A stretch of DNA of 64,000 nucleotides from Bathymodiolus brooksi (lineage: Eukaryota; Mollusca; Bivalvia; Mytilida; Modiolidae), in the NCBI GenBank assembly GCA_963680875.1, contig OY804590.1:24614640-24678639 (forward strand), written 5' to 3'. The notes beneath the pieces were generated by a model. The model worked only from the letters and a program-made list of their open reading frames with translations. It made no database searches and had not been told where the DNA came from. The first letter of the stretch is position 1. The number at the start of each line of letters is the position of its first letter. Of the stretch, positions 27,202-62,172 are shown piece after piece. The translations under genes were made by a program, and so were the position numbers.

Positions 27202-30200
27202 CTATAATGAAAGGTATATTCAATATAAAACTGGGTTATTACACTTGTAAAAGAAAAGTTGTGATTATTACTTATATTATATGAGTTTATTGTTGTGGAT
27301 TTGAAGGTTCTCTGATACCATGATCTTATGTTAGTATGATTTATATAGCTGTGCAATCAGTCCTTATCACTACTCTAAAGTTATGACTCCCAACATCCGC
27401 GCATGTCGGTGGTTTACATCGGGTACATCCTGTTTCTTCCACCATTAAATAAAGCGGACCGCCACGATATTACTGAAATATTCGTGAAAGTTGCGCTTCT
27501 CTCATGATATATTATATCGAGCTTGTTGTCGTTTGAACCACCACGATATAACTGAAATATTGTTGAAAGTGATGTTAAACACCATAAGCCTAGCCTGCTG
27601 TTGCATGGTATCTAATTCGTCCTTTTGATTGATACTCTGGTCTGGTTTAGGTACTCTACGTTTGTTCCTTATTTTCACTCAGCAATCAGAAATGAAGCGG
27701 CCATGCAAGTGCTTTCTACGTGTGAAAGTAGAATGCAAATTCTCAATTATAACTGGGTTAGCAATTTTGTTGAAAAAATCTTAAAAATCATAATCTTGAA
27801 CTTTATACATAATATATTTAAGAAAAAAAAGAAAAAAGGAGATATCAAATTTAGTGCACACGAAGCGTATTTGGAATAACCTTCATCAAGTACGATCAAA
27901 GTCGACAAGGTTGGAAAACCAAATAACTTAAAAGTTTTGGGAGTAAGTAAAACAAAGGGCTTAAACAGTATCACCAAAATAGACCAAGGTCACCTATGTC
28001 TGAGGGAGGAGAACCTAAATAGTATCACCAAAATAGACCAAGGTCACCTATGTCTGAGGGAGGAGAACCTTAACAGTATCACTAAAATAGACCAAGGTCA
28101 TCTATGTCTGAGGGAGGAGAACCTTAGTTTTAATAATAAAATCAATCAAATATTTTGTGATACTTACAAGACTAATTTCACAAACTATACCATTTTGTGG
28201 TGCGTTACAAATTGGACTCGATGGACCAGCCCCTCCTGCTGCTGTTATTGCACCACACTTAACACCTGTAAGGACTGAAAAAAATAATAAACTTCATGTA
28301 AATAAATAATTAGGGACTTCGAGTAAGTGATTAACGCGAAGTTAGAAATGTCTTATTATCATACAGTGTATAGCGTGACAGACAGAGAACAGAGAAGTTA
28401 CTTTATGACGATTTGATTTGATTGATTTTTGGTGTTTTAAATAACGCCACTTTCAGCAATATTTCAGCTATATCATGTCGACCAGTTTTAGTGGTGGAAG
28501 ATACCGGAGTGCCCGGAGAGAACCACCGACCATGGGCAAGCAACTGGTAAACTTTATCACTTGAGGCTGCGAGTCGATTGCAACCTTTTTAGCAATTTGC
28601 ACATCCGGGCTTGAACCCACGGCGTATTGGTGATAGGGTTGTATGAGTTGTTAGGTAATCCAACTACCTAACTCATTGAGCCACTCGGGCCCTTCTTTAT
28701 GACGAGATGACAATGACGTCTGCTTAGTAACAGAACAACACGTCGAGCTAGATTTGTCAAGTGCTAACTCATGGAAACGCAAATGCAAAATGAACTTCTA
28801 TTGCTTTACCCAAGCGAAGATCGACATAATATTTTCCGAAATCGTGTAGAACTAACCAACCCTTATCTTCGAAGTACACATATTTTTAACCATTAGCAGA
28901 TTGTGAATTGTGATTCTAAACATTGTCAAGATTTAACAAGTTTGAACTTCAACAGATAATAAGTAATGTTAAAATCCACCTGTGATGTAAATCTATTGTC
29001 TAAACTCTCCATTATTTTTAAGGAATGGAGAGTTATGAACAATGTGGACAGGGGCGGAGTTATTGTTCTCTTTATACTTTAGATAATATACACAGACTTT
29101 TGTCTGTTACAAGATTAATAATTAATAAAAATTAATAAAGTACAATGGGTGGATTTTAAGTTGGAGAATGTCCTCGTATCTCTCCATTCCTTAAAAACAA
29201 TGGACAGGTTTACCGAAGTAAGTTAAGTAAGGATACAGAGTCACGGCTTGATTTACAGAAGTAAGTTAAGTAATGACACAGAGTAACGTCTTGATTTACA
29301 GAAGTAAGTTAAGTAATGACACAGAGTCACGGCTTGCTTTACAGAAGTAAGTTAAGTAATGACACAGAGTCACGGCTTGATTTACAGAAGTAAGTTAAGT
29401 AATGACACAGAGTAACGGCTTGATTTACAGAAGTAAGTTAAGTAATGATACAGAGTCACGACTTGATTTACAGAAGTAAGTTAAGTAATGATACAGAGTA
29501 ACGGCTTGATTTACAGAAGTAAGTTAAGTAATGACACAGAGTCACGGCTTGCTTTACCAAAATAAGTTAAGTAATGATACAGAGTCACGGATATGTTTAC
29601 CGAAGTAAATTAAGTAATGATACAGAGTCACGGCTTGATTTACAGAAGTAAGTTAAGTAATGACACAGAGTCAAGGCTTGACTTACCAAAGTAAGTTGAG
29701 TAATGATGCAAAGTCACGGCTTGGCCTACCGAAGTAAGTTGAGTAATAACACAGCGTCAATGCTTGACTAACCGAAGTAAGTTAAGCAATGATACAGAGT
29801 CACGGCTTGATATACCGATGTACATTGTAAGTTAAGTAATTATACAGAGTCACGACTTGATTTACAGAAGTTAAATGTACGAGTATAATGTCATTGACTT
29901 TGGTGATGTTTTATATTTTTTTCAAGGAGTACATTAAAAACATAAATTAACACTAATTATCGAGTTTTAAAGTAAAAAGTCCATCCATTTAGTCTTATTT
30001 TCATGAAAGCACATCTCGAACACCCTAAGGTGACATTTTACTATGCATGCGCAAAGCCTGTTGTTGCTGAAAAACAATGTCTGTCGACGCCGTCATACGA
30101 TAATCTTAACTGCATGATTCTGCCAGAAAAAGAAACAGGAAAGAAGTTTTGGCGAATGATAATAAAACAAGAATTACCATAGGTCACCAACATGGCCGTT

Positions 30201-33200
30201 GGATAGAATTGAAGGAACCGTTGAGAGTTTAAGCTCATGCTGTAGTGCCATTGCGCATGTAGTTCGGAAATTGGGACATGCATAATTAATGATGCTGCTG
30301 CACACACAAAAAACAACGAAACTACACGTTTTCTGGTCGAATCTCACCAAACGACGTTTTATACTCATGTTTTGAAAGTATATATTAACGACATTATACC
30401 TTTAAGCAATGATACAGAGTCACGGCACTAGACTTACCAAAGTAATTTAAGTCAAGATACAGTCATTGTAATATTCATTAAAGAACATCAAGTAATGACA
30501 AAGACCGTCAAAGAGTCAAGACTAGAGTCACAAAGTAAATTAAGTAATAACATATTGTCACAAGAAGACTTACAAAAATGAATTTAAGTAAAGATACAAT
30601 CATTGCAATATTTATTAAAGAACATCAAGTCATGATAAAGAGTCGCAACAAGACTTACTAAACATAATAAAGGCCATCGCTATGTGCATCTTGAAACGAC
30701 CGCAGCAATTTGACAAGCTCTTCCTCCTAAACGAGTTTTACTGCAATCAATCAAGTTTTACTCACAAACCATGTGTGATAGATGAAACCCTTGTTCCAAT
30801 CAATTCAAAGTAAAGAAAAACACATAAAAAACAGATGACAAGTAAAGAGAATGGTATATATCCTCCTGATATGAACATTTCTTTATTTGGGCCTCTTTTA
30901 GCCCCTTTTCCATATTGATTAGCTCATTTTCTGGATAACTTTTTAATAATGGACCAACATTTTTTTAATTAATTCTCAGAGTTCGTATAAATCATATATT
31001 AATATACATTTAGAAAACAAATGTTGATTTGAAAACTGGATTTCTAAGAATTTTTTTCTGAAGATTTATAGACAATAGACAATAGACAATACACAATATT
31101 TTATTGGCACACACGCAATTACAATAATTGGTAAAGGCCCATTGTGATACAATAGCAATAAGGATGTGTATATATGCAATACATACTAAATTAACAACAT
31201 AAATAACAATGTTATGACATAACTATATTAAGATATACTATCTTTTCTAATTTTTAACAAATTTGATTTAAAGTATGTGCATAATTAGTTAATTCGCACC
31301 GATTTACTGTTAAGTAATAATTTTTTTTTATAATATAAAGATACTTTTTTTAATAGTATTTCTCTTTCTTTCCTATGTTTTTCGAACTGCCAAAGGAAAT
31401 GGGTTTCATCTTCAATTTCTAAATCATTGCATATTTTACAAAATCTTTCAGTTCTATTTATTTGAAAATAGCGGCCCTTATCAATTTCGAGGTTATGGGC
31501 ACAAATTCTAGAAGTCGAACGGAAATAGAGTATATTAATTTGATTACTAATATATGAGGGAGAAACCAATAACGGTTGGGAATAACATTTCCAGAAAATA
31601 CATGATATAATAAAATTGTCGTTTCGAGGATTATCAGATTCGCATACTTACCTCCGGCAGGAAATGTAACACCAACTGCCGCCATTCCACTGTTCATGCC
31701 TAATATGGTACCGGCGACACCAAATGCATCTGTATGCCCAGTAAAAAAGTCTCCTGCATTGCCTGCAATAATAGATATTTATTTTTGTAAATAAAAATGG
31801 GCATTTTCGTTTCTATCGCTCTTCTAGATACATTAGAAAAACAATTCGAATAATAAAACGCAAAGCTAAATCTACAAGATCGCCAGGGCAGTTTCAAAAT
31901 CTAATCTTAAAATCGCAAGAAACCGGGAAAATCGATACCCTTAACATATGCATGATCGATCATTCCCCTGGATTAGTACAGGTTCGTCACTAAAAAGTAG
32001 CGCGTTAAACGGCTTTTATCGGCCCTAACTTTACCTCTTAGTCAAATAGGTTTCTTTTATCGGCTCTAACCTTACCTCTCAGTCAAATAGGTTTCTTTTA
32101 TCGGCCCTAACCTTACCTCTTAGTCAAATAGGTTTCTTTTATCGGCCCTAACCTTACCTCTTAGTCAAATATGTTTCTTTTATCGGCCCTAGCCTTACCT
32201 CGTAGTCAAATAGTTTCATTTTATCGGCCCTAACCTTACCTCTTAGTCAAATATGTTTCTATTATCGGCCATAACCTTACCTCTTAGTCAAATAGGTTAC
32301 TTTTATCAGCCCTAACCTTGCCTCTTAGTCAAATAGGTTTTTTTATCGGCCCTAACCTTACCTCTTAGTCAAATAGGTTTCATTTATCGGTCCTAACCTC
32401 ACCTCTTAGTCAAATATGCTTCTTTTATCGGACCTAACCTTACCTCTTAGTCAAATAGGTTTCCTTTATCGGCCCTAACCTTACCTCTTAGTCAAATAGG
32501 TTTCTTTTATCGGCCCTAACCTTACCTCTTAATCAAACAGGTTTCTTTTATCGGCCCTAACCTTACCTCTTAGTCAAATGGGCTTCTTTTATCCGCCCTA
32601 ACGTTACCTCTTAATCAAATAGGTTTCTTTTATCGGCCCTAACCGTACCTCTTAGTCAAATATGTTTATTTTATCGGCCCTCACCTTATCTCTTAGTCAA
32701 ATGGGTTTCTTTAATTGGCCCTTACCTTACCTCTTAATCAAATAAGATTCTTTTATCGGCCATAACCTTACTTCTTAGTCAAATAGATTTCTGTTATCGG
32801 AGCTAACCTTACCTCTTAGTCAAATAGATTTCTTTTAACCGCCCTAACCATACCTCTTAGTCAAATAGATCTCTTTTATCGGCACTAAACCTTACCTATT
32901 AGTCAAATATGTTTCTATTATCGGCCGCAACCTTACCTCTTAGTCAAATAGGTTTCTTTTATCAGCCCTAACCTTGCCTCTTAGTCAAACAGGTTTCTTT
33001 TATCGGCTCTAACCTTACCTCTTAGTCAAATAGGTTTTCTTATCGGCCATATCCTTACCTCTTAGTCAAATATGCTCCTTTTATCGACCCTAGCATTACC
33101 TCTTAGTCAAATAGGTTTCTTTTATCGGCACTAACCGTACCTCTTAGTCAAATAGGTTTCTTTTATCGGCCCTAACCTTACCTCTTAGTCAAATAGGTTG

Positions 33201-48200: not shown

Positions 48201-51200
48201 GTTTCTTTTATCGGTCCTAACCTTACTTCTTTGTCAAAAAGATCTCTTTTATCGGCCCTAACCTTACCTCTTAGTCAAATAGGTTTCTTTTATCGGCCCT
48301 AACATTACCTCTTAATCAAACAGGTTTCTTTTATCGCCCCTAACCTTACCACTTAGTCAAATGGGCTTCTTTTATCGACCCTAACGTTACCTCTTAATCA
48401 AATTGGTTTCTTTTATCGGCGTTAACCTTACCTCTTAGTCAAATAGGTTTCTTTTATCGGCCCCAACAGTACCTCTTAGTCAAATATGTTTCTTTTATCG
48501 GCCCTAACCTTATCTCTTAATCAAATGGGTTTCTTTAATTGGGCCTAACCTTACCTCTTAATCAAATAAGTTTCTTTTATCGGTCCTAACCTTACCTCTT
48601 AGTCAAATAGGTTTCTTTTATCGGCCCCAACAGTACCTCTTAGTCAAATATGTTTCTTTTATCGGCCCTAACCTTATCTCTTAATCAAATGGGTTTCTTT
48701 AATTGGGCCTAACCTTACCTTTTAATCAAATAAGTTTCTTTTATCGGCCCTAACCTTACCTCTTAGTCAAATAGGTCTCTGTTATCGGAGCTAACCTTAC
48801 CTCTTAGTCAAATATGTTACTATTATCGGCCATAACCTTACCTCTTGGTCAAATAGGTTTCTTTTATCAGCCCTAACCTTGCCTCTTAGTCAAATAGGTT
48901 TCTTTTATCGGCCCTAACCTTACCTCTTAGTCAAATAGGTTTCTTTTATCGGTCCTAACCATACCTCTTGGTCAAATATGCTTCTTTTATCGGCCCTAAC
49001 TTTACCTCTTAGTCAAATAGGTTTCTTTTATCGGCCCTAACCTTACCTCTTAATCAAACAGGTTTCTTTTATCGGCCCTAACCTTACCTCTTAGTCAAAT
49101 GGGCTTCTTTTATCGGCCCTAACGTTACCTCTTAATCAAATTGGTTTCTTTTATCGGCCCTAACCTTACCTCTCATTCAAATAGGTTTCTTTTATCGGCC
49201 CTAACCGTACCTCTTAGTCAAATATGTTTCTTTTATCGGCCCTAACCTTACCTCTTAGTCAAATAGGTTTCTGTTATCGGCGCCAACCTTATCTCTTAGT
49301 CAAATAGGTTTCTTTTATCGGCCCTAACCATACCTCTTAGTCAAATATGTCTCTTTTATCGGCCCTAACCTTATCTATTAGTCAACTATGTTTCTATTAT
49401 CGGCCCTAACGTTACCTCTTAGTCAAATAGGTTTCTTTTATCAGCCCTAACCTTACCTCTTAGTCAAATAGGTTTCTTTTATCGGCCCTAACCTTACCTC
49501 TTAGTCAAATATGCTTCTTTTATCGACCCTAGCCTTACCTCTTAGTCAAATAGGTTTCCTTTATCGGCACTAACTGGACCTCTTAGTTAAATATGTTTCT
49601 TTTATCGGCCCTAACCTTATCTCTTAGTCAAATGGGTTTCTTTAATTGGTCCTAACCTTACCTCTTAATCAAATAAGTTTCTTTTATCGGCCCTAACCTT
49701 ACCTTTTAGTCAAATAGGTTTCTGTTATCGGCGCTAACCTTACCTCTTAGTCAAATAGGTTTCTTTTATCGGCCCTAACCATACATCTTAGTCAAATAGG
49801 TCTCTTTTATCGGCCCTAACCTTACCTATTAGTCAAATATGTTTCTATTATCAGCCCTAACCTTACCTGTTAGTCAAATAGGTTTCTTTTATCAGCCCTA
49901 ACCTTGCCTCTTAATCAAATAGTTTTTTTTTATCGGCCCTAGCCTTACCTCTTTGTCAAATAGGTTTCCTTTATCGGCACTAACCGTAACTCTTAGTCAA
50001 ATAGGTTTCTTTTATCGACCCTAACCTTACCTCTTAGTCAAAAATGTTTATTTTATCGGCCCTAGCCTTACCTCTTAGTCAAATAGGTTTCTTTTATCGG
50101 CCCTAACCTTACCTCTTAGTCAGATATGTTTCTTTTATCGGCCCTAACCTTACCTCTTAGTCAGATATGTTTCTTTTATCGGCCCTAACCTTACCTCTTA
50201 GTAAAATATGTTTCTTTTATCGACCCTAACCTTACCTCTTAGTAAAATATGTTTCTTTTCTTAATACTTAGAGAAAAGGTACTTTATACATGACATAAAC
50301 CAGAATAACGTTGTGTCCAGAAGTCCATTTTGGGGAATACACGAACGTGTTATAGACATAAATGACAGGTTTATTTCAGTAATGAACGACAAAGAAGGAG
50401 ATGTATTTTGTGTATTTACATGTGCCTTACCAGCTAATCGCGCCTGGACAGCGCCAAATTCTCCAGGTGTGTTGAACTCCGCAGGTGCACCATTGTTTGC
50501 AGCACATTGTTGCTACAATATAAAACGTTAATATTCAAATACAAATAATATTAGTATTAACGTATTTTATTAATTAATTCAATATTACACATTATGATAA
50601 TACACATATAAATTATATAGACATTTAAATTAATCAATAGGATTCGGAAACAAGTGGTCATACTTATATTAATCCGTATCCCTGATATTATCTGGTGTTC
50701 AAGGTTTAATTAGTATCGAAAGGTAGAAGTGTATTGAAAATTAATCAAGTGTTAATCAGTCGTTGTCAATGTTATTTGGTGTGCTTTAGTAAGAAAAAAA
50801 AATAAAAAGAAACAAACAAATGAAGTGGAAAGGTGCAAGTGGTTTTTTTTTAACATGTTTAAATTGTATGAATATTGTTAAGAGGTGAATCGTTTACTAC
50901 TTATGATGAACTTCTGCACGTTTAAGAATATATCTGTATTTAGGGTATTCGTTAAGTCTGTAGAGCCAAACAATAATAAATCCGTATTTAAGTTAATTGG
51001 TAAATTAATGGTGTGAATAAATCTCAGTCTTGTTGCATTGTGACGGGGACAATGTAGCAGAAAATGGGCCGTGGTTTCTGTTGCCCCACATTGACAGAAT
51101 GGGACATTTACAATGTTTTTACGAAATAAGTGATGATTGAGAGAGCTGCATGGCATACGCAACCTAGCGTGTAAAATGTGTCCCAGTCGAGTACCAATAT

Positions 51201-54200
51201 AATAATAAATGGGTATAGTATTGTTTTGGGGTTGAATATTTGATTTAATTATCTGAACAGACCTGCTTGATTTAATATTTTCTGGCTGTTGGTTCCATAG
51301 TTGTATACTGGAGGGTATAAAATAGCTTGCGTAGAACGATGCTCGAGTGCGTACTGGAGGAATACGTGAGGTATGACGAGTATTGTGGTCATGGATCATG
51401 CCGAAATTTTGCGGAATTAAGTTACTAAGATATTGAGGAGTTAGATTATTTGACATCTTATAAAATTGAATCGCTCTATGCCTTTCCCTTCTATCTTTCA
51501 ATTTTTCCCACCCGGTTTCAATATATAGATTACTTAAGGATACAAATCTGGTATCCCCAGTCACGATTCTAGCAGCCTCAACCTGAACATTTTCTAGTTT
51601 GTTGATTAGTATTTGAGTCTTGGTATCCCAAACAACATCGCATATTCTAGTAATGGTCTTATAAAAGTAATATAAATTGTTTCTAGAGTTTTTCCGATCC
51701 AGTATAAATTTGAATTTCCCGTGGAATAGCTTACCAGAACACTTCAGGACTGAAAATAGTTTCGCACATTTTAAGAGCCTTGTTCAGTCCTGGACTGGTT
51801 CTGATTGCCGTTGCTCTGCTTGCAAATAAAAAGCCTAATTTATTTGTCTTGCCTCAATTTTATAAGTGTTTCTACTGACAGCCTTTGTTTGAATTAGTAC
51901 TTGTTTCGAAAGAATTTGCTTCCGATTCACGATCGATGTTTTTTTTGTTTTTTTATAAATATTTTAGATCTCTTAATTATTAGTAATGCTGTCTTTCTTT
52001 TTATTTTTTTATGAAAATTTAAAAAATTTTAAGATGTTCAAATTTTTATTCTTTAAATGGTTTTAAATAATTTCTATGGAAATTACTAAATGTATAAATT
52101 TCTGTATTTTAGTTGCTTTTTGCTTGTTTTTAGTTTCATGCTTGGCTTGTTTTGTACTGCGTTTGTGTTGAAATGGAGTGAGTGTATGGTAGTCCTGAAC
52201 AAGGTGACAGCGAGGCACTTGCCACATGGACCTCTGTTCGGGTTTCTTTTACAGCCCCCTTTCTGCTTTTTGCCTGCATGATATGTTTTAATTTTGTAAT
52301 TGCATGCTGATTGTATTGTTTTAATGTTGATGTATTTGTATTCGGTAAAAGGCTCTTGAGAGCTTATGTGATTTGTTTATATTACATGTCGAATTGAAAT
52401 AAAGTTTTACTTACTTACTTACTTAAAACGTTAACACGTGAGAATGCTTTTTTAAGTTATCATGTCAATATGTTTATTCCAATTACCAAGGTGTTTATGT
52501 TCAGTAACAGTACTAATGATAGTATTATTCATAATAAGGTTAGGTTGATGGGATTTATTTAATTTTCAAGAGATAGTCATGGTTTCAGTTTTCTGTGGAT
52601 TAAAATTTACCACCCATTTTGTAGACCATGCATGTAATTTCACTAGGTCATCATCGAGTATTTGTGCTGCTTCTTGTGGGTCGTCTACAATTAAGTACAG
52701 ACTAGTGTCATCGGCAAATAATTTTATAGTCGAATTAATATCGGTCAGTATGTCATTTATGAAAACAATGAACAAAAGAGGGCCTAAAATCGATCCCTGG
52801 GGTACACCAGCATTTATGTTACGCCAACTAGAAGTTGAATTATCAATTACGACACGTTGTTTTCTTTCAGACAAGTAGTTTTTCACCCAAGATAATAATG
52901 ATCCTCTAATCCCTATTGATTCAAGCTTACGAAGTAATCCCTTATGCCAAACTCGGTCAATTGCTTTACTTATATCGCAAAAGACAACTCTCACTTCCTT
53001 ACCTTCATCCAACGCTCTACCAAATTCATTTGTGATGTACAGGAGTTGATTAACGGCAGAATCTCCAGGAGTAAAACCAGATTGTTGGGATGTAATTAAG
53101 TTATTGTCAATCAAATAGTTATAAATATGTTTATAGATTAATCGCTCCATTACCTTGGCAAGTATACTAATGAGGGAAATTGGTCTGTAGTTTTTCAAAT
53201 TACTGGGACAATCTTTTTTTTAGAAAGGGGGGTCACAAATAACATTAAGATGCTTACTGAGTTCGTTTTTAAACGTGAAACGGTACATGTCCTGAGTATA
53301 TGAGTGAAATTGGCGGGTATTTGATAAGAAGCAGAAACTGCTTACCATTCCAGAACACCTGAATTTATCCCTGGGTTTTTGGGGTGTTTTTTTTGCGGGG
53401 GGGTGGGGGGTTTGTGGGTTATTTTTGGTGAGGTCCGTGTTCCTCATCTTTTTCGCATTCGGTGTTGTATTGTGCTGTTTCGCTTGTCTTCAACTTGTGC
53501 CTGGTGTGCTCAATGTTACCAGTGTTTCTGGATTGTCCATTCTTGATTACCCCTTCTCTTTTCTAACAGGAGAGTTTGAAGACACCAAAGGGGTAATCAG
53601 TCTACAACAAGTACATATACTTACTGATGCGTCAACAGTCTACAACAAGTACATATACTTACTGATGCGTCAACACAGTCTACAACAAGTACATATACTT
53701 ACTGATGCGTCAACACAGTCTACAACAAGTACATATACTTACTGATGCGTCAACACAGTCTACAACAAGTACATATACTTACTGATGCGTCAACACAGTC
53801 TACAACAAGTACATATACTGACTGATGCGTCAACAGTCTACAACAAGTACATATACTTACTGATGCGTCAACAGTCTACAACAAGTACATATTCTTACTG
53901 ATGCGTCAACAGTCTACAACAAGTACATATACTTACTGATGCGTCAACAGTCTACAACAAGTACATATACTTACTGATGCGTCAACAGTCTACAACAAGT
54001 ATATATACTTACTGATGCGTCAACACAGTCTACAACAAGTACATATACTTACTGATGCGTCAACAGTCTACAACAAGTACATATACTTACTGATGCGTCA
54101 ACACAGTCTACAACAAGTACATATACTTACTGATGCGTCAACAGTCTACAACAAGTACATATACTTACTGATGGGTCAACAGCCTACAACAAGTACATAT

Positions 54201-57200
54201 ACTTACTGATGCGTCAACACAGTCTACAACAAGTACATATACTTACTGATGCGTCAACAGTCTACAACAAGTACATATACTTACTGATGCGTCAACACAG
54301 TCTACAACAAGTACATATACTGACTGATGCGTCAACAGCCTACAACAAGTACATATACTTACTGATGGGTCAACACAGTCTACAACAAGTACATATACTG
54401 ACTGAGGCGTCAACAGCCTACAACAAGTACATATACTTACTTATGTGTCAACAGTCTACAACAAGTACATATACTTACTGATGCGTCAACACAGTCTACA
54501 ACAAGTACATATACTGACTGATGCGTCAACAGCCTACAACAAGTACATATACTTACTGATGCGTCAACAGTCTACAACAAGTACATATACTTACTGATGC
54601 GTCAACACAATCTACAACAAGTACATATACTGACTGATGCGTCAACAGCCTACAACAAGTACATATACTCACTGATGGGTCAACACAGTCTACAACAAGT
54701 ACATATACTGACTGATGCGTCAACAGCCTACAACAAGTACATATACTTACTGATGCGTCAACATAGTCTACATCAAGTACATATATTTACTGATGCGTCA
54801 ACACAGCCTACAACAAGTACATATATTTACTGATGTGTCAACATAGTCTACAACAAGTACATATACTTACTGATGCGTCAACATAGTCTACAACAAGTAC
54901 ATATACTTACTGATGGGTCAACACAGTCTACAACCAGTACATATACTTACTGATGCGTCAACATAGTCTACATCAAGTACATATATTTACTGATGCGTCA
55001 ACATAGTCTACATCAAGTACATATTTTTACTGATGCGTCAACACAGTCTACATCAAGTACATATATTTACTGATGTGTCAACATAGTCTACATCAAGTAC
55101 ATATATTTACTGATGCGTCAACATAATTTACAGCAAGTACATATACTTACTGCTCCGGCAGCATAAGTTAGAGCGCCTGGTATTACTCTGTAACAGCTCT
55201 GTAATATAGTACCAGCACCTGCAACACCCGCTGGAATCCCTAATCTCTCGTAATTCGCTGGACAAGCTGGCATTGGAGTACATGCTACAATAAAGCAAAA
55301 AAAACATAGCATAACAACATAAATTCAAAAAATGAATATAGCATAACAACATAAATGCAAAAAAATAAACATAGCATAACAACATAAATGCAAAATAATA
55401 AACATAGCATAACAACATAAATGCAAAAAATAAACATAGCATGACAACATAAATGCAAGCATAAACATAGCATGACAACATAAATGTAAAATAATAAACA
55501 TAGCATAACAACATAAATGTAAAAAGTAAACATAACACAACAACATAAATGTTGGTTAAAAGCTCATTATAGCTTATGTTATTGTTTATATATATGCCCG
55601 ACTTAAAATACAACTTTTTGTATTTGTATTTGTTGCGTGTTGCAATTACAAAAAATGCAAATCAAAAGTACACATCAAACCGCATGACAATTGATGAAGG
55701 TTATTCCAGAAACGCGTCGTGCACACTTAATTCGTGATCTACGTTTTTACTGCTACCCTGGGTCGATACCTCTTCTAGTCCCCATGGGTATCATCCGCCC
55801 AGTTGTCAATGTTTCGGCTTCGGTCTGGTTTATTATATATATTTATTATTGGAATTTACAATAAATATTTGGATTTAAATCTATAATTAAATTTACTTGC
55901 GGGTATCATTATATCACTGTGTACATACTGACCCGGCAAAAAATGTTTGGACTCGTGCATATCTAATTCCGGAACGGAACTGGACTGTAAGAAGGCAAGA
56001 AGAAGGTAAGAATTCTGTTTATTTATTTGTTTTTTGCATGAACTTGGGGGAAATAAATGCTTTATTAACCATTTCCTGCTGTCAGATGAAACATTTTGGC
56101 TATGTCATCGTATATTAATTGAGAAATAAGCGATAATGTGCCGTAAAATGACGATCAGCTTAACACCAACCCCGAATTTCGATCAGTTTCTCTTTGAATT
56201 GCTCGCATTGAATGGAACGAAATGTATTGAAGGAACGATTGATGAATAAAGATGACAAGAATCGTCACTTTGCACTTTTAATTATTGATATAAGTAAACA
56301 CGGGGCGAAAGGAATGGGACATGTCACAATGGCAGGTCCCAGATTCGTGAATGATGCTACAGCATGATGACCCGTTTTGTTCCAAAAAAAATTACGAACA
56401 AACAGGAACAAAAGCAACAGAAATTCACAGCCACCATTATTTATACTGTGATACAACATTTCCACAATTCGATCACTTAATAAAACATTTTAGAGAAAAT
56501 CATCCGTACCATTGTTATTACTGCAAAATAAAATTCGTCCTATTTGAAGAAGTAATAAAACACTCGACGGAAAACCACGGCTCACTAATGTTGAAAGTTA
56601 AATACCTTGAACTGAATCCATTTAGTTGACATTATGGTTACAAAGGCCATAATTGCAATGTTATTCCAGAGAAAATAAAGGCTTTGGTTCCTGTTTGTAA
56701 AGCATTTATTTCCCCCAAGTTTATGCAAAACACAAATAAATAAACATAATTCTTACCTTCTTCTTGCCTTCTTACAGTCCGGTTCCGTTCCGGAATTAGA
56801 TATGCACGAGTCCAAGCATGTTTTGCCGGGTCATTTTGTACACTGTATATTATTGATATATTTGTTTAGTATATTATTATGTGTGGTATTTAGTGATATC
56901 ATAAGTAAGGTTAAAATCGAGTTTCGACGTCACTTCCTTTATTAACAGAAAATTCCAGATAAGAAATCAGTGAAATTTCTGCCACAAAATAATCGTTCGA
57001 GTGTAACTCATCCACTACTTACATATTTGTTTGTTTATTGTATGTTGGTAATGCTTCTTGTTTGTCCATATTCTCCGGATGGGAGTTAATTTGTGTCGGT
57101 CATAACAGTTAGATATGGCTGACGTCGCTGCGCACAACGAACATTAAGGGTTGAACTTGTAGGACAACATTAGCCTATGTTTTCCAGGGTTATTAGATCA

Positions 57201-60200
57201 GCAGTAACTTTCTATCTCATCAATAGGTGTCTATTATGTCAATCGGTAGATGTACTCAAGTTATCTACAAACATGGAAGACCTCAGTGACACCGGTATAT
57301 GTACTGAAGTTATGCTTATCTACAAACATGAAAGAATTCAGTGACAGCGGTAAATGTACTTGGGTTATATACTAATCTACAAACATGGAAGACCTCAGTG
57401 ACACCGGTTAATGTACTGCAGTTATACTTATCTACAAACATGGAAGACCTCAGTGACACCGGTTGATGTACTCAAGTTATACCTATCTACAAACATGGAA
57501 GACCTCAGTGACACCGGTAGATGTAATGAAGCTATGCTTATCTACAAACATGGAAGACCCTAGTGACACCGGTATATGCACTGGAGTTTTATACTAATCT
57601 ACAAACATGGAAGACCTCAGTGACACCAGTAGATGTACTGAAGTTATACTTATTTACAAACATGGAAGACCTCAGTGACCCCGGTAGATGTACTGAAGTT
57701 ATGTTTATCTACAAACTTGGAAGACTTCGGTGACAACGGTAGATATACTGAAGTTATGCTTATCTACAAACATGGAAGACCTCAATGGCACCGTTGGATG
57801 TACTGAAGTTATACTTATCTACAAACATGGAAGACCTAAGTGACACCGGTAGATGTACTGAAGATATACTTATCTACAGACATGCAAGACCTCAGTGACA
57901 CCGGTAGATGTACTGAAGTTATAATTATCTACAAACATGGAAGACCTCAGTGACACCGGTAGATGTACTGAAGTTATACTTATCTACAAACATGGAAAAC
58001 CCCAGTGACACCGGTATGTGTACTGGAGTCACATACTAATCTTCAAAAATGGAAGATCTCAGTGACACCAGTAGATGTACTGAAGTTATGCTAATCTACA
58101 AACATGGAAGATCTCAGTGAAACCGATAGATGTACTGATGCTATTCTTATCTACAAACATGGAAGACCTCAGTGACACCGGTAGATGTACTGAAATTATG
58201 ATTATCTACAAACCTGGAAGATCTCCGTGACACCAGTAGATGTACTGAAGCTATGCTTATTTACAAACATGGAAGACCTCAGTGACACTGGTAGATGTAC
58301 TGAAATCATGATTATCTACAAACATGGAAGACCTCAGTGACACCGGTAGATGTACTGAAGTTATTCTTATCTACAAACATGGAAAATCCCAATGACACCG
58401 GTATATGTACTGGAGTTATATACTAATCTACAAACATAGAAGATCTCAGTGACACCAGTAGATGTACTGAAGTTATACCTATTTATAAAGATGGAAGACC
58501 TCAGTGATACCGATATATGGACTGACGTTATAGTTATTTACAAACAAGGAAGACCTCAGTGACACCAGTATAAGTACTAAAGTTATACTTATTTACAAAC
58601 ATGGAAGACCTCAGTGACACCGGTATATGTATTGAAGTTATACTTATCTACAAACATGGAAGACCTCAGTGACACCGGTATATGTATTGAAGTTATACTT
58701 ATCTACAAACATGGAAGACCTCAGTGGCACCGGTATATTAATTTGCAACAGGAATTATTGTAGTAGTAGAGGTTGATTACAAAAAATTACTGGACATCAT
58801 AGAAAAGAACAACTTTGAAAGGAACACAAGAAATGATGCATACGTCAGTTCAATTCACTCTTTAGTTATTGTCTTTGTTTTGAAAACGTAAATTTAGGAA
58901 AGCCTAGAATAATGCATACGTGTTAGTGTTGGAAACACTGGTGCTGTCATCGTCGGACATATTGGACAAACTCTCGGTGTGGGTACTTGTCTCAAAATCG
59001 TAGTTGATCCAGGTACGACTGTAGCCCCGGTATTAGTACTGCCAGCTATAGCAGCGAGAACTGCCAGTCCAATCAACGGAGCAGCTGAAAACGATAATCA
59101 TATATGTATGACAATTATTATCATAACATTTAACAAAAATGTTTGTTTATAATCTATATTATATTTTTCTGAAAATTGCATATTTGTACAGTTGAATCTC
59201 TGTATCTCGAAGTTGATGGGACCGTTGCAAAATTTCGACTTATCCGAAATTCAACTTATTAGATTGTTTAAGTCAAAACAGAAATGCTTTGATAAATAAA
59301 TTTCAAGAAACAAAACGTTTAAACAAAGATACAATATTATAAGACAGATACAGGTGTTCGATGATGTTGTCTTGTAAAGAGACGATGTGAAAAGAAAACA
59401 GCAAGACACACAACAGACGTTATGCGCGCTATTGGTGATACTTTGACTAAATAGAACATGAAATAAGTAAAACGAATGCAGATTTTTTTTTTAATTGATG
59501 GATTTTGATTTCCGATACATGCTTGTATAGATAATTATACGAAAAATTGTTTTATTATATTAGATATGGTTTATTTTTGCTTTTGAAAACGAAATTATTG
59601 GAAGAAAGCGCACATTGTTCTCATGTAACGCGTTACAAACTATCCGTATGTTTTTTTTTACATTTTTTCATTAACGATTTCTGATTAAAGGAATGCTTGA
59701 AGGAAAAAATCGGTAAGTTCATGGAACGAAAAGAATGTAACGCTGAAAGAAAAGGATCTGCATGCCAATAAAAAACAAACTATATTTCAGCTTTTTTATT
59801 ACTAAATTTTCACAAAAAAAATATACTTATCAAATGTGATTATCTTAATAAACGAAAAAATCTTTTCAAAAATGATTTTTTTTTAGAAAGCTAAAAAATA
59901 TTGTTAAAGGTCAACAAAAATGTCCAGTTGCAACTTGACGTAAAAAATCACGAACTATAAAACTTTACACATTTGGAACTATATTTTTCACTCATAATTT
60001 TCGTGCTAAATCCAAATAGCAAAAATGTGCGTTTTCCGTGGAAGAGAATGAACTTAACAAACTTGATTTTGGATAAAAAATTACGATTTCTACGTAAAAT
60101 TGTAGAAGTTCAACCAATTTTTCCAGTAAACGTTTCTCCTTATCGACGACAAAATAAAGTCGCGCTCCATAAAGTCTTGCTATTTTTTTCAGAGGGAAGT

Positions 60201-62172
60201 TTTCTATTAAAATGAAAACAAATATATAAAAAAACAACAACAATAAAGCGAAACCAAAAAACGAGCAAACGATATCAAAACTTGAAAAAAAAGGGGGGGG
60301 TAAAGCGAAAAAACAAATAAAAAAATATACCAAACCTGAAAAAATAATGTGTTTCCGCTTACCCGAGCGATCCTAATTAAAAATGACTTTATGACCTTAA
60401 TTTTTTTTGGTGTCATTTTTGAACAAGCACTGCAAAAAAGAATGTGTGCATTGTAGAAACTATTATTATATAATAGTAAAAACAAATCGAGAAATTTAAT
60501 TTTCAACCTAAAATGTACCTGCCGATCCAAATTTATTTAAGCATATTAGCGGAAGCATAGAAGCTTTTTTGCATATGAAAAGAGTGTAGGTCTAATCTTA
60601 AGGGGTGTTGTTTACATATGTCGAGATGCAATTTACATTTATTCACTGAACAAAGAATAATAAAATACTCTACTCCCATCCCACCCCAACCAAACCCAAG
60701 TTATGCAAAAACAAATAATGAAATAAAAAGATGAAAAAGAAGACGAGAAACATTCTTATCAACGTTAATTACGTGTAACGTCAAGTGTCGCCAACATCGC
60801 GCGTAACGTCAACACCACAAAATTGAAAAATAAGAGCAAAACCTCAGAAAATACCAACTTGAAAAACGATGTTCAATTCGTCTTTACCTCCAGTTGTTTG
60901 TAAGAGGGCTCATGTTTTGTTTACGTTATTTGTGTTTGTTTCCGTAATAAGTGTTGGTAAATTGTTTATGTTTTCTACCTGTTTGTTCTGTTTTCTTCCT
61001 TCTATTGACTAGAGTAGATTGTTGTTAGCCACACAAGTAATATTAGTTTGTGTATAAAAACATCATATTACATTTTATGTTGTAGGAGATAGGGTATAGC
61101 TTTCTTTATTACTGTTCTTTTTTTGGGGTCCTATTTAGTCAGTCATATGTACTGCTGGTGCCCATTATGGGTGCCTGACAGGATAGAAATGAGGACATTC
61201 CATTGATAATTCCGGCTTACATTGTATCAGAATTTCAGGCATTGAAGTTACAAAATGATATACACAACATCCATAGTTATCCATCGCGTATATGTGTCAA
61301 TTGGGGGAGGGGGTCCCAAGAATGGAAAATTTCCATAAATTGCAAGCTTCAATGGAGTGGTTTGAAGTTAACAATAAGAATATTTCAAAGTTGTATTGAT
61401 ATATGATTTTGGTTTTAAGCAAAATGCAGTACAGTCAAACCTGTCTAACCTGTCTAGGTGGTCACCTCTATTAAGCAATCACTAAGATAAAGAAGTCAAG
61501 GAAAATGTCAAAAATATTTTTTTTATCAATGTGTGACGTAAAAGTGTTTTTGACATTTACATTCACTGAATATGGTACCGTTTTGACAACTATTTTATCT
61601 ATTTTTTCCTGTATTTAAATACTGTTATAGTGACAGCCGGAGACTTTGAACCGTAATGAGAGCGGGAGGTTTGGAGCTTTAAAATATGATTCAACCCACC
61701 ATTTCTTTAGAAATGCTTCTACCAAGTCAGGGTCATTACGTTTTCACAGTTTTCCGGTTGTTGACTGAGTTTGTCTGTTTATATAATTATGAGTTTTGAC
61801 TTTCCCTTTGTAAGATTGTTCGGAGTTCGGTAATTTTGTTATTTCCCTTATTGTATTAAAAGGTCACCTTTTTCTTGTCCTATCATAGAAAATTTCATAT
61901 GAATTTAACCTCTTTAAAGAGGTCACCTGTCTTATAAGACCACTTAATCTTTGTCTCAACGGTGATCCCTTTATACAGCTTTGACTGTATTTGAATATAT
62001 GGCAATAATATGTTGACTCACCTATAAAGCCTAGTCCCAAACCGCCATCACCACCACCACCAATTCCGCCAGCGTCAACTAGCCTGGCATTGAAGGCTCC
62101 ATCTGTGTCCAGTGTTATGGCTGTCGTTAGTGACACGACAACAAGAAGCAGAAATACCACAGGAATGACCAT
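27163..62172 (-). CDS. Seven-exon gene for a secreted Gly/Ala-rich, Cys-containing protein (259 aa)
   Basis: Joined coding exons (minus strand): 62172-62022, 59084-58920, 55284-55151, 50512-50431, 31762-31652, 28265-28168, 27201-27163; 780 nt including TGA. All six introns are GT-AG, donors are GTGAGT, GTATGC, GTAAGT, GTAAGG, GTAAGT and GTAAGT, and phases agree at every join (1,1,0,1,1,0). The start ATG has A at -3 and G at +4. Residues 1-18 ('MVIPVVFLLLVVVSLTTA') form a signal peptide. Then come a Gly-rich run ('GGIGGGGDGGLGLGF'), a hydrophobic Ala-rich stretch ('GLAVLAAIAG'), a Pro/Cys segment ('CPICP', 'CTPMPACP'), 'GVAGAGTIL' in exon 3 and 'GVAGTIL' in exon 5, and a Cys-x-Cys end ('STCFCPAGTG'). 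There are 11 Cys in total. It is probably secreted or deposited extracellularly (shell-matrix or byssus-like composition), but I do not recognise the family. Exon 2's donor and the lack of further exons are the least certain parts. Confidence 0.82.
27401..27595 (+). repeat. SINE body fragments in intron 6
   Basis: 'gtcggtggtttacatcgggtac...ttccaccattaaataaagcggaccgccacgat' and a second piece 'ccacgatataactgaaatattgttgaaagtgatgttaaacacc' match the SINE body of 28415-28697. Confidence 0.7.
27967..28130. repeat. 54-bp tandem triplication in intron 6
   Basis: Units start at 27967, 28021 and 28075 ('agtatcaccaaaatagacca'). The array ends about 35 nt from the exon 6 donor. Read as sense RNA, each unit contains TATTTTGGTGATACT, which is complementary to the donor region AGTATCACAAAATA apart from one bulged G. 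Confidence 0.85.
28168..28265 (-). CDS. Exon 6 of the secreted-protein gene
   Basis: Acceptor 'cttacag' then 98 nt: completes a Gly codon, then 'VKCGAITAAGGAGPSSPICN' and 'APQNGIVCEISL', then donor GTAAGTATC. Contains three Cys. An alternative acceptor 'tttttcag' lies 9 nt upstream and would keep the frame, adding three residues. Confidence 0.8.
28415..28697 (-). mobile_element. Complete tRNA-derived SINE in intron 5
   Basis: On the minus strand the head reads 'ggcccgagtggctcaatgagttagg' (A box) and 'ccgtgggttcaagcccgg' (B box). It is followed by the body 'cggtggttctctccgggcac', 'ccactaaaactggtcg' and 'gaaatattgctgaaagtggcg', ending in 'aaaatcaatcaaatcaaat'. It is the fullest copy of the family in the window. 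Confidence 0.85.
28969..29159. mobile_element. MITE-like repeat with TTAAAATCCACC ends, copy 2 (intron 5)
   Basis: Bounded by TTAAAATCCACC (28969-28980) and its complement (29148-29159), with the same internal CTCTCCATT hairpin as 68-219. Homology continues to about 29205, where the 43-bp array begins. Confidence 0.65.
29208..30665. repeat. 43-bp tandem array in intron 5 (interrupted)
   Basis: Unit 'gaagtaagttaagtaatgac' plus 'acagagtcacggcttgatttaca', exact period 43 at 29301/29344. About 15 units run to 29870. It resumes in degenerate form from 30402 to about 30665 after a 527-bp insertion. The + strand carries GAAGTAAGTT, so the gene's sense strand carries AACTTACTTC. Confidence 0.88.
29875..30401. 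mobile_element. 527-bp TTAA-flanked MITE inserted in the 43-bp array
   Basis: TTAA at 29871-29874 and 30402-30405 flanks the insert, and the array unit is continuous across it. Near each end 'GTATAATGTCrTT' occurs in inverted orientation (about 29884 and 30400). The TTAA target points to a piggyBac- or Kolobok-like origin (inference). Minus-strand frames 30041-30316 and 30174-30368 lie within it and are not genes. Confidence 0.75.
31066..31620 (-). pseudogene. 5'-truncated LINE 3' end in intron 5
   Basis: The minus-strand frame 31569-31285 includes 'STSRICAHNLEIDKGRYFQI', then 'RFCKICNDLEIEDETHFLW', the C-x2-C...H zinc-knuckle-like C-terminus found in LINE ORF2 proteins. It is followed by a 3' UTR with AATAAA and the terminal repeat (TATTGTC)n at about 31070-31100. 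Its 5' truncation point lies within about 30-80 nt of the exon 5 donor. Confidence 0.75.
31652..31762 (-). CDS. Exon 5 of the secreted-protein gene
   Basis: Acceptor 'ttattgcag', 111 nt, donor GAG|GTAAGTATG. It reads 'NAGDFFTGHTDAFGVAGTIL' and 'GMNSGMAAVGVTFPAG' after completing a Gly codon. 'GVAGTIL' echoes 'GVAGAGTIL' of exon 3. The exon has no Cys and is symmetrical (phase 1-1). Confidence 0.82.
32013..50259. repeat. 18.2-kb satellite of 41-bp monomers filling intron 4
   Basis: The consensus monomer reads 'ggtttcttttatcggcccta' + 'accttacctcttagtcaaat' + 'a', 41 bp, about 445 copies. Variants recur in long blocks. The truncated unit 'tcggccctagacttagtc' is at 33371, 35742, 40280, 42651 and 46579, so a spacing of 2371 occurs twice. 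About 42.4-46.2 kb and 46.25-50.0 kb are near-identical duplicates with an offset of 3805-3928. There is no coding frame: 41 is not a multiple of 3, and the 44189-44395 frame is incidental. The array ends about 170 nt from exon 4 and 250 nt from exon 5. Confidence 0.97.
50431..50512 (-). CDS. Exon 4 of the secreted-protein gene
   Basis: Acceptor 'tatattgtag', 82 nt, donor GCTG|GTAAGG. Reads 'QQCAANNGAPAEFNTPGEFG' then 'AVQARLA', one Cys, entering in phase 0 and leaving in phase 1. 'GAVQARLAG' resembles 'GAFNARLVDAG' of exon 1. Confidence 0.8.
50878..53215 (-). pseudogene. LINE ORF2 (reverse transcriptase to C-terminus) in intron 3, interrupted by another element
   Basis: Minus strand: 53198-52566 encodes RT motifs 'NYRPISLISILAKVMERLI', 'VVFCDISKAIDRVWH' (motif A), 'AGVPQGSILGPLLF' (motif B) and 'LFADDTSLY' (motif C). 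Coding resemblance continues with shifts to about 52425. It resumes at about 51722 with 'KFKFILDRK' and 'DVVWDTKTQILINKLENVQV', and the frame 51564-50878 gives the C-terminal region with 'CQCGATETTAHFLLHCP'. The 5' part (endonuclease, ORF1) is missing. It belongs to the Jockey/CR1-like group; the exact clade is uncertain. Confidence 0.82.
51722..52424 (+). mobile_element. Retroelement 3' end inserted in the LINE, + orientation
   Basis: The segment separating the two halves of the minus-strand LINE ends with AATAAAG and (TTAC)n at about 52398-52424, the 3' signature of a LINE or its 3' UTR on the + strand. A short piece near 51760-51860 may encode a C-terminal remnant ('KIVSHILRAL'). The frame 52090-52281 is not supported as a gene. 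Confidence 0.65.
53220..53598 (+). repeat. Penelope-like tail repeat with G-rich run
   Basis: Contains 'ggcgggtatttgataagaagcagaaactgcttaccattccagaacacctgaattt' and 'agtttgaagacaccaaaggggtaatcag', then joins the 38/40-bp array directly at 53599. The run gcgggggggtggggggtt near 53395 could form a G-quadruplex. Confidence 0.6.
53599..55150. repeat. 38/40-bp tandem array starting exactly at the exon 3 splice donor
   Basis: About 39 units of 'tctacaacaagtacatatac' + 'ttactgatgcgtcaaca(ca)g', periods 38 and 40. In the sense direction the unit is GTAAGTATATGTACTTG + TTGTAGACTGTG + TTGACGCATCA. The first unit is the beginning of intron 3 itself (GTAAGTATATGTACTTGCTG). Open frames on the + strand (53425-53745, 54015-54833) are translations of the repeat. 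Confidence 0.95.
55151..55284 (-). CDS. Exon 3 of the secreted-protein gene
   Basis: Acceptor 'tttattgtag', 134 nt, donor GCA|GTAAGT. Reads 'CTPMPACPANYERLGIPAGV', 'AGAGTILQSC' and 'YRVIPGALTYAAGA' after completing a Pro codon. Contains three Cys. Phase 1 in, phase 0 out. Confidence 0.82.
55300..55550. repeat. 31-34-bp tandem array next to the exon 3 acceptor
   Basis: About seven units of 'gcataacaacataaatgcaaaaaataaacata', ending within about 20 nt of the splice acceptor at 55285. In the sense direction it is T-rich (TTTATTTTTTGCATTTATG), so it extends the pyrimidine-rich tract. Minus-strand frames 55128-55613, 55285-55533 and 55325-55546 are translations of it. Confidence 0.85.
55916..56848. 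mobile_element. DNA-transposon-like element with ~150-bp inverted repeats
   Basis: The left arm 55916-56065 and right arm 56698-56848 are inverted repeats of about 150 bp with high similarity, e.g. 'gacccggcaaaa', 'gcatatctaattccggaacg', 'aagaaggtaagaatt', 'gggggaaataaatgcttta' and their complements. They enclose about 630 bp with a zinc-finger ORF. The outer ends read ACTGTGTAC and ACAGTGTAC. No clear target duplication was found. Confidence 0.75.
56351..56629 (+). CDS. Short C2H2 zinc-finger ORF inside an inverted-repeat element
   Basis: 92 codons. 'CYYCKIKFVLFEEVIKHSTE' followed by NH gives C-x2-C-x12-H-x4-H, a complete C2H2 finger. Just before it, 'YLYCDTTFPQFDHLIKHFRE' followed by NH has the same spacing, but Tyr replaces the first Cys. 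The two fingers look like a tandem duplication with one decayed. The ORF lies between 150-bp inverted repeats, so it is probably element-encoded and possibly non-functional. Its role is unknown; DNA or RNA binding is inferred from the finger only. Confidence 0.5.
   Translation: MMLQHDDPFCSKKNYEQTGTKATEIHSHHYLYCDTTFPQFDHLIKHFRENHPYHCYYCKIKFVLFEEVIKHSTENHGSLMLKVKYLELNPFS
56849..57224. other. Non-coding stretch in intron 2
   Basis: No gene or repeat was recognised. Confidence 0.4.
57225..58740. repeat. 55-bp tandem array in intron 2
   Basis: About 27 units of 'tctacaaacatggaagacct' + 'cagtgacaccggtagatgta' + 'ctgaagttatactta', period 55 (57433, 57488, 57543). It contains the ACCGGT palindrome in most units. 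It ends about 180 nt from exon 2. Confidence 0.93.
58920..59084 (-). CDS. Exon 2 of the secreted-protein gene
   Basis: Acceptor 'tatcgttttcag', 165 nt, proposed donor ACAC|GTATGC. Reads 'APLIGLAVLAAIAGSTNTGA', 'TVVPGSTTILRQVPTP' and 'RVCPICPTMTAPVFPTLT' after completing an Ala codon. Without the donor the frame would read 8 further codons ('RMHYSRLS') to a stop, so a short alternative product is possible. The agreeing phase with exon 3 favours splicing. Confidence 0.75.
59187..59275 (+). repeat. pogo/Tigger-type MITE end (fragment)
   Basis: 'acagttgaatctctgtatctcgaagttgatgggacc' followed by 'tttcgacttatccgaaattcaactt' resembles the terminal part of pogo/Tigger MITEs. The other end was not found. 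Confidence 0.45.
59276..61429. other. Intron 1 non-coding DNA
   Basis: AT-rich with poly-A and poly-T runs. A weak copy of the Penelope-like tail ('cgtctttacctccagttgtttg') lies near 60880. Frames at 59973-60215 (+), 59992-60333 (-) and 60207-60530 (-) overlap each other and show no motif. No gene seen. Confidence 0.45.
61432..61987. mobile_element. TA-flanked MITE (CAGTCAAA ends) with a nested Penelope 3' UTR
   Basis: Ends CAGTCAAACCTGTCT and its inverted counterpart CAGTCAAAGCTGTAT are flanked by TA on both sides (61430-61431, 61988-61989). This fits a pogo/Tigger-like MITE of the same type as 6484-6660. Inside, 61483-61856 is the reverse complement of the 3' UTR at 25499-25872, a nested insertion. 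Confidence 0.7.
62022..62172 (-). CDS. Exon 1 (first coding exon, signal peptide) of the secreted-protein gene
   Basis: ATG at 62172-62170 in context GAACATGG, 151 nt, donor ATAG|GTGAGT. Encodes 'MVIPVVFLLLVVVSLTTA', a hydrophobic signal peptide, then 'ITLDTDGAFNARLVDAGGIG' and 'GGGDGGLGLGFI'. Just upstream of the ATG the minus strand reads 'ttcacttctctttatgtcag', a good 3' splice site, so the 5' UTR is probably split. Confidence 0.82.

Follow-up and report, generated by a model that had tools for sequence, protein, structure and literature searches.

A donor-bearing minisatellite in a Bathymodiolus brooksi gene family, probably amplified from an exon 3/intron 3 junction

At the end of exon 2 of the human IFI6 gene (6-16, G1P3) lies a minisatellite with a unit of 12 nt. 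This minisatellite reportedly provides several splice donors, as the title of a 1995 paper by Turri, Cuin and Porter (Nucleic Acids Res 23:1854) describes. Two of its downstream repeat units act as donors, and three mRNAs result (PMC4526556). Two further cases come close: in the polyubiquitin gene UBC, dual-specific splice sites form a tandem array of coding units 228 nt apart, with AGGT used as donor or acceptor and the frame unchanged (PMC10809524), and in potato a new intron arose through a duplication that spanned an intron-exon boundary (PMC4974935). Here, we describe a minisatellite in intron 3 of a predicted gene of the mussel Bathymodiolus brooksi, located within a 64,000-nt stretch (C19:24614640-24678639, referred to as the window) of the 2.0 Gb assembly GCA_963680875.1. 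The array probably arose by tandem amplification of the exon 3/intron 3 junction, comprising 23 nt of exon and 17 nt of intron, and only the first junction is predicted to be a working donor.

IFI6 is the nearest known architecture, from which the mussel array differs in its unit, its size, its presence throughout a gene family and its frame logic. In both cases, a tandem repeat starts where an exon ends and shares the register of the donor, and the units are donor-like. However, the mussel unit measures 40 or 38 nt, of which 23 nt are exonic, is present in up to 193 later units and is common to 13 gene copies; whereas the later units of IFI6 give in-frame isoforms, none of the 826 later donors in the mussel arrays is in frame and free of stops. 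With UBC, the locus shares a tandem array with a splice site in each unit, but the mussel units are intronic, have CA/GT instead of AG/GT and shift the frame by steps of 40 or 38 nt, and an AGGT of the UBC type at each unit boundary was not found. Like the potato case, the mussel array involves a tandem duplication that crosses an exon-intron boundary and copies splice signals; unlike in potato, the intron would have been kept, and the duplicated junction recurs 22 to 193 times inside it. Open-literature searches returned no junction-derived splice-donor array in a mollusc.

The features of the window on which the argument is built are as follows.

55151..55284, minus strand: predicted exon 3, 134 nt, with acceptor TATTGTAG and donor GTAAGT; it ends in phase 0 and is present in the assembly in 13 copies
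55151..55173, minus strand: last 23 nt of exon 3, the putative exonic part of the amplified unit, with 17/23 identity to the first later unit and a break at -24
55134..55150, minus strand: real donor with the initial 17 nt of intron 3, the putative intronic part of the unit
53598..55133, minus strand: array with 39 later donor-bearing junction copies, spaced at 40 nt in 22 cases and at 38 nt in 17
50513..55150, minus strand: predicted intron 3, host of the array and, in the window copy, of a reverse transcriptase fragment

A first-pass annotation of this DNA had described a minisatellite of about 39 repeats made from the intron's own 5' splice site. The repeat itself was readily recovered: Tandem Repeats Finder (TRF) delimited it at 53598-55152, with a period of either 40 (39.7 copies, 92% matches) or 78 (19.9 copies, 93%), and a wrap-around alignment of the window copy placed 39 later donor positions behind the real donor at the spacings listed above. 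On the minus strand, exon 3 ends in GGAGCA and the intron starts with GTAAGTATATGTACTTGCTG, as had been noted, its first base being position 55150 of the window; the register of the array coincides with the donor, and donor-like copies follow directly behind it. The annotation had further suggested that the unit stemmed from the first ~40 nt of the intron. This part was not supported: the unit has just 17 nt in common with the intron start (GTAAGTATATGTACTTG), and its remaining ~23 nt correspond to the end of exon 3. The array thus appears to derive from the junction, donor included, and not from the intron side alone. The exonic part reads CTGTAAATTATGTTGACGCATCA in the exon-adjoining unit of five of the gene copies described below (A, B, D, E and F), and the 38-nt form of the unit lacks 2 nt of this part. 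The junction within the units is CATCA/GTAAGT, and GT is preceded by A in 97% of the units counted (copies other than A, E, L and H).

Exon 3 was found at 13 loci of the assembly including the window, here called copies A to M; 12 of these are located on C19 (24.4-25.8 Mb) and one, copy H, on C4, while a fourteenth exon 3 match row is a fragment of one of the 13 loci. The comparison of related introns that the annotation had recommended could hence be made within the same assembly, and in 13/13 copies an array is present at the same exon 3/intron 3 junction and shares the register of the donor; later units number 22 to 193 per copy, and the unit is shorter in copy H. An array-free relative was not seen among these 13 copies, nor did searching the assembly with exons 1, 3 and 5 reveal an array-free ancestor copy. 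The unit appears confined to the family: the 26-nt junction word GACGCATCAGTAAGTATATGTACTTG has 233 matches in the 2.0 Gb assembly (a total count, with positions listed for part of them) and 233 in the 13 fetched loci, always in gene sense, and a reversed control word has 0 matches. Over 9-10 kb, copies A and B are 95% and copies D and E 99.8% alike, so some copies could be recent duplicates or unmerged alleles; K and L are 92% alike. In copy M (L035), the frame of exon 3 is broken and the array is still there. One orphan family copy at C19:24781274 (L043) matches only exon 1 and part of intron 1 over the 8.5 kb fetched and has no array word.

Compared with the first-unit sequence, the 23-nt exon 3 tail agrees at 20 positions in copy G, 18 in C, 17 in A, B, I and K, 16 in D, E, H, J and L, and 14 in F and M. 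Among 265,882 background 23-mers from the same loci (copies other than A, E and L), in which the best matches may be array remnants, these values are equaled by 0 for G, 1 for C, 2 for the next nine copies and 82 for F and M. The tail of the window copy agrees with its own first later unit at 17/23 positions, a value reached by 2 of the 265,882 background 23-mers. The consensus of all units has drifted; the 13 tails agree with it at 12-18 of 23 positions, and the window tail does so at 13/23. When the last three bases were left aside, the window tail agreed at 11/20, which 5/928 upstream windows reached; in the same comparison, 0 or 1 of ~930 upstream windows was as good in copies C, D, E, G, I, J, K and L, and 5 or 6 were in A and B. 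The likeness has a sharp limit: between exon positions -40 and -24, identity to the matching part of the unit drops to 3-6 of 17, so that the match ends at -24. Since 23 + 17 equals 40, the main unit length, and both sides of the junction are matched, the amplified segment corresponds to the exon/intron junction.

The opposite polarity, in which an array born within the intron later supplied exon 3 with its present end, the tail and donor being an exonized first unit, is the strongest competitor, and we regard it as unlikely. It would account for the fact that the tail is the fastest-changing part of exon 3. In its last 8 codons, pN is 0.368 and pS is 0.121, compared with 0.079 and 0.084 in the rest of exon 3 (10 copies); exon 4 gives 0.172 and 0.147 (9 copies). 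These are uncorrected proportions of nonsynonymous and synonymous differences, taken from copies other than A, E and M. It would also account for copy H, in which GGATCA precedes and ATGATGTAGAC follows the donor hexamer of the real junction, variants that recur in 32 and 24, respectively, of its own 136 units and in 0/690 units of other copies. On the other side, the tail hexamer is absent from the copy's own array in 8/13 copies and rare in F (2/42) and M (2/61), that is, absent or rare in 10/13, and therefore the tail is not a recent array copy there. The frame of exon 3 is moreover kept (132 or 138 nt from the first full codon) in 12/13 copies.

The private variants common to the junction and the array of copy H nevertheless indicate that the two exchange sequence, and the fast change of the tail would fit either occasional overwriting or fast divergence. 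Such exchange is not general, because the tail hexamer is missing from the own array in those 8 copies. A more far-reaching proposal is that exon end, donor and satellite form a self-renewing junction, in which array copies overwrite the end of exon 3, the segment evolves fast and selection weakens the nearest copies, which would let the first donor go on prevailing; we put this forward only tentatively and hold it to be doubtful.

If the array was amplified from the junction, the first step may have been a duplication between two CTGTAAA stretches exactly 40 nt apart, one at exon position -23 and one after intron position 17. We infer this step from what is left of the two stretches: CTGTAAA lies directly behind intron position 17 in 8/13 copies, CTGTAAAG lies behind the last unit in 7/10 copies with an aligned distal flank, and the exon tail starts with an exact CTGTAAA today only in copy G, with near-variants in the other copies. 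Unequal exchange would then have expanded the array to 22-193 later units, partly before the gene family spread and partly while it did so. The array sits inside one predicted intron between exons 3 and 4. In the window copy, the distal edge joins sequence that the other copies have ~400-450 nt farther along, as would be expected after a later deletion.

Transcription would carry all of the copies into the pre-mRNA and so confront the spliceosome with dozens of donors that resemble one another, as do the 23 nt upstream of each. Under exon definition, the donor that closes the shortest exon behind an acceptor is favored. Of 826 later donors, 766 keep GT and 535 keep GTAAGT or GTGAGT, and by U1 pairing 26/39 later donors of the window copy are equal to or better than the real donor; local strength therefore does not single out the first donor in this copy. 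The first donor would instead be chosen by its position, as it closes the shortest exon 3 behind the upstream acceptor, and from what is generally known of splicing, position is the likely reason for its use. The later copies might alternatively be a working set of donors that yields a ladder of isoforms, as IFI6 splices at two downstream repeat units (PMC4526556), and the 535 intact donor hexamers would suit such a role. We consider this improbable: 257/826 later donors are in frame, and 0 of these 257 are stop-free (in copy C the frame test covers the inserted stretch only, exon 4 being outside the set, and in copy M exon 3 is broken). A stop precedes the second donor in 12/13 copies (in M by nominal frame), and the usual product would be a shorter protein that ends in VSICTCCKLC or similar, but five database proteins read on. 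Any later choice of donor would thus shift the frame or meet a stop, and the later copies would be silent decoys that are tolerated because they are removed with the intron, with some pressure to weaken the units nearest to the exon.

The distribution of strong donors (GTAAGT or GTGAGT) is consistent with such pressure. In 10 copies (A, E and L, the closer members of near-identical pairs, set aside), units 2-5 have 16/40 strong donors, the middle of the arrays has 401/623 and the last four units have 35/40, and 2/20,000 within-copy shuffles gave a proximal count as low as that observed. Across all 13 copies, the corresponding numbers are 20/52, 470/722 and 45/52. Divergence outside the donor is 9.1% in proximal units, 8.9% in the middle and 16.8% in the last four units (copy H counted by units 3-6). 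This suggests, but does not prove, that the weakness of the proximal donors is due to selection.

Two further explanations have very little in their favor. Exon 3 could be the last coding exon, with a protein that ends inside the first unit and no donor at all; the exact peptide VSICTCCKLC precedes the stop in six copies and a close variant does so in five. However, predicted exons 4-6 follow with splice sites and continuous phase, and because copy H has VSMM and copy C reads on, the constant element is GTAAGT and not the peptide, so we hold a terminal exon 3 to be highly improbable. Equally hard to sustain is a dispersed satellite or mobile element that landed at the junction by chance, since, even though other introns of the gene also hold arrays (of different units), all 233 exact word matches in 2.0 Gb belong to this gene family and the unit matches both sides of the junction.

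A number of points weigh against amplification of the junction or against the use of its first copy as the sole donor. The junction-word search finds exact copies only, so that diverged copies may exist elsewhere; a looser unit search gave 363 matches, and those among the matches listed fall in the 13 loci. The reference for the first unit was picked as the best and corresponds exactly to the sequence in five copies (A, B, D, E and F). In the consensus comparison without the last three bases, upstream windows as good as the tail numbered 22/928 for F, 63/1,095 for H and 20/928 for M, and for these three copies this comparison is weaker than that with the first unit. The unit of copy H is shorter (~32 nt), and its alignment to the 40-nt consensus begins only at +7; owing to this shift, its tail agrees with its own next 23 nt at only 3/23 positions. 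The direction of the duplication is only inferred, as no array-free relative was found, the distal CTGTAAAG could instead be a truncated last unit, and the window copy is without the distal CTGTAAAG edge.

With regard to the donors, the exon model and the choice of the first donor are themselves predictions made from genomic sequence rather than from transcripts. The finding of 0 productive later donors in 12/13 copies is due to one early in-frame stop, and five database proteins (P0002, P0006, P0013, P0028 and P0033) read past it; the early stop is hence not fixed, though a step of 38 or 40 nt still shifts the frame. In copy G, only 4/27 later donors equal the real donor in U1 pairing. As for the weak proximal donors, position +5 is one of three positions with a proximal bias, the others being -23 and -14 (copies other than A, E, L and H, last four units set aside), so these donors may be one of several old variants. 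In addition, the gene copies are related and not independent, the second donor is of full strength in D, E, F, H and M, and D/E have three strong donors directly in a row.

The remaining predicted exons of the window copy were placed as follows.

62022..62172, minus strand: coding part of predicted exon 1, with a hydrophobic start that is signal-peptide-like by eye
58920..59084, minus strand: predicted exon 2, part of the joined open frame
50431..50512, minus strand: predicted exon 4, 82 nt, with acceptor TATTGTAG and donor GTAAGG
31652..31762, minus strand: predicted exon 5, with 13 matches in the assembly
28168..28274, minus strand: predicted exon 6, followed by GTAAGT

Joined via the first donor, exons 1-6 give one open frame of 250 codons on the minus strand. 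The six exon borders were picked by eye, and every inner border has AG before and GT behind the exon. Exon 4 has 82 nt and is stop-free in 12/12 copies fetched (that of copy C was outside the set), and more exons are likely to follow predicted exon 6. The product of the six joined exons had no match in Pfam or NCBIfam, and the first three exons alone had none in Pfam. Searches by tblastn of other viral and genome contig collections found no relatives. A protein database contained 33 relatives, all of which are by eye exon-wise open frames, none of them spliced; for this reason, and because at least one (P0006) resembles copy C of the assembly, they are not independent species evidence. One of them, P0027, reads through the junction and then has, by eye, inverted array units before sense units resume, which suggests an inversion right behind the donor in another individual.

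The gene holds several other repeats and one insert. In intron 4 (window 32013-50259), TRF found a 41-nt array of 446 copies, with 293 GGTRAG donor cores in sense and 0 in antisense, apparently a second donor-like array of another unit in the same gene. Its unit has AGGTAAGG in common with the exon 4 donor and starts ~170 nt behind it, and nothing further matches by eye. Intron 2 contains a 33-nt T-rich array (55297-55551), present in 13/13 gene copies, that ends close to the exon 3 acceptor, so that exon 3 sits between two minisatellites, and a 55-nt array of ~27 copies (57261-58742) located ~180 nt downstream of the exon 2 donor. Within predicted intron 5, a 43-nt array (29209-29871) has a GTAAGT-like site that runs antisense to the gene. 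A reverse transcriptase fragment (52566-53219; Pfam RVT_1, E value of 2e-34) lies inside intron 3 of the window copy, and no such insert was present in ten aligned intron 3 spacers of ~1 kb from gene copies.

The choice of the spliceosome among many similar donors has mostly been studied with few competing sites. Here, 13 natural copies present 22-193 later junctions, many of them with an equally strong donor and a related 23-nt exonic context, which makes the role of position and exon definition directly testable. If the array was indeed amplified from the junction, as we think probable, the case illustrates the birth of a minisatellite from a splice junction, one that possibly feeds changes back into a coding end.

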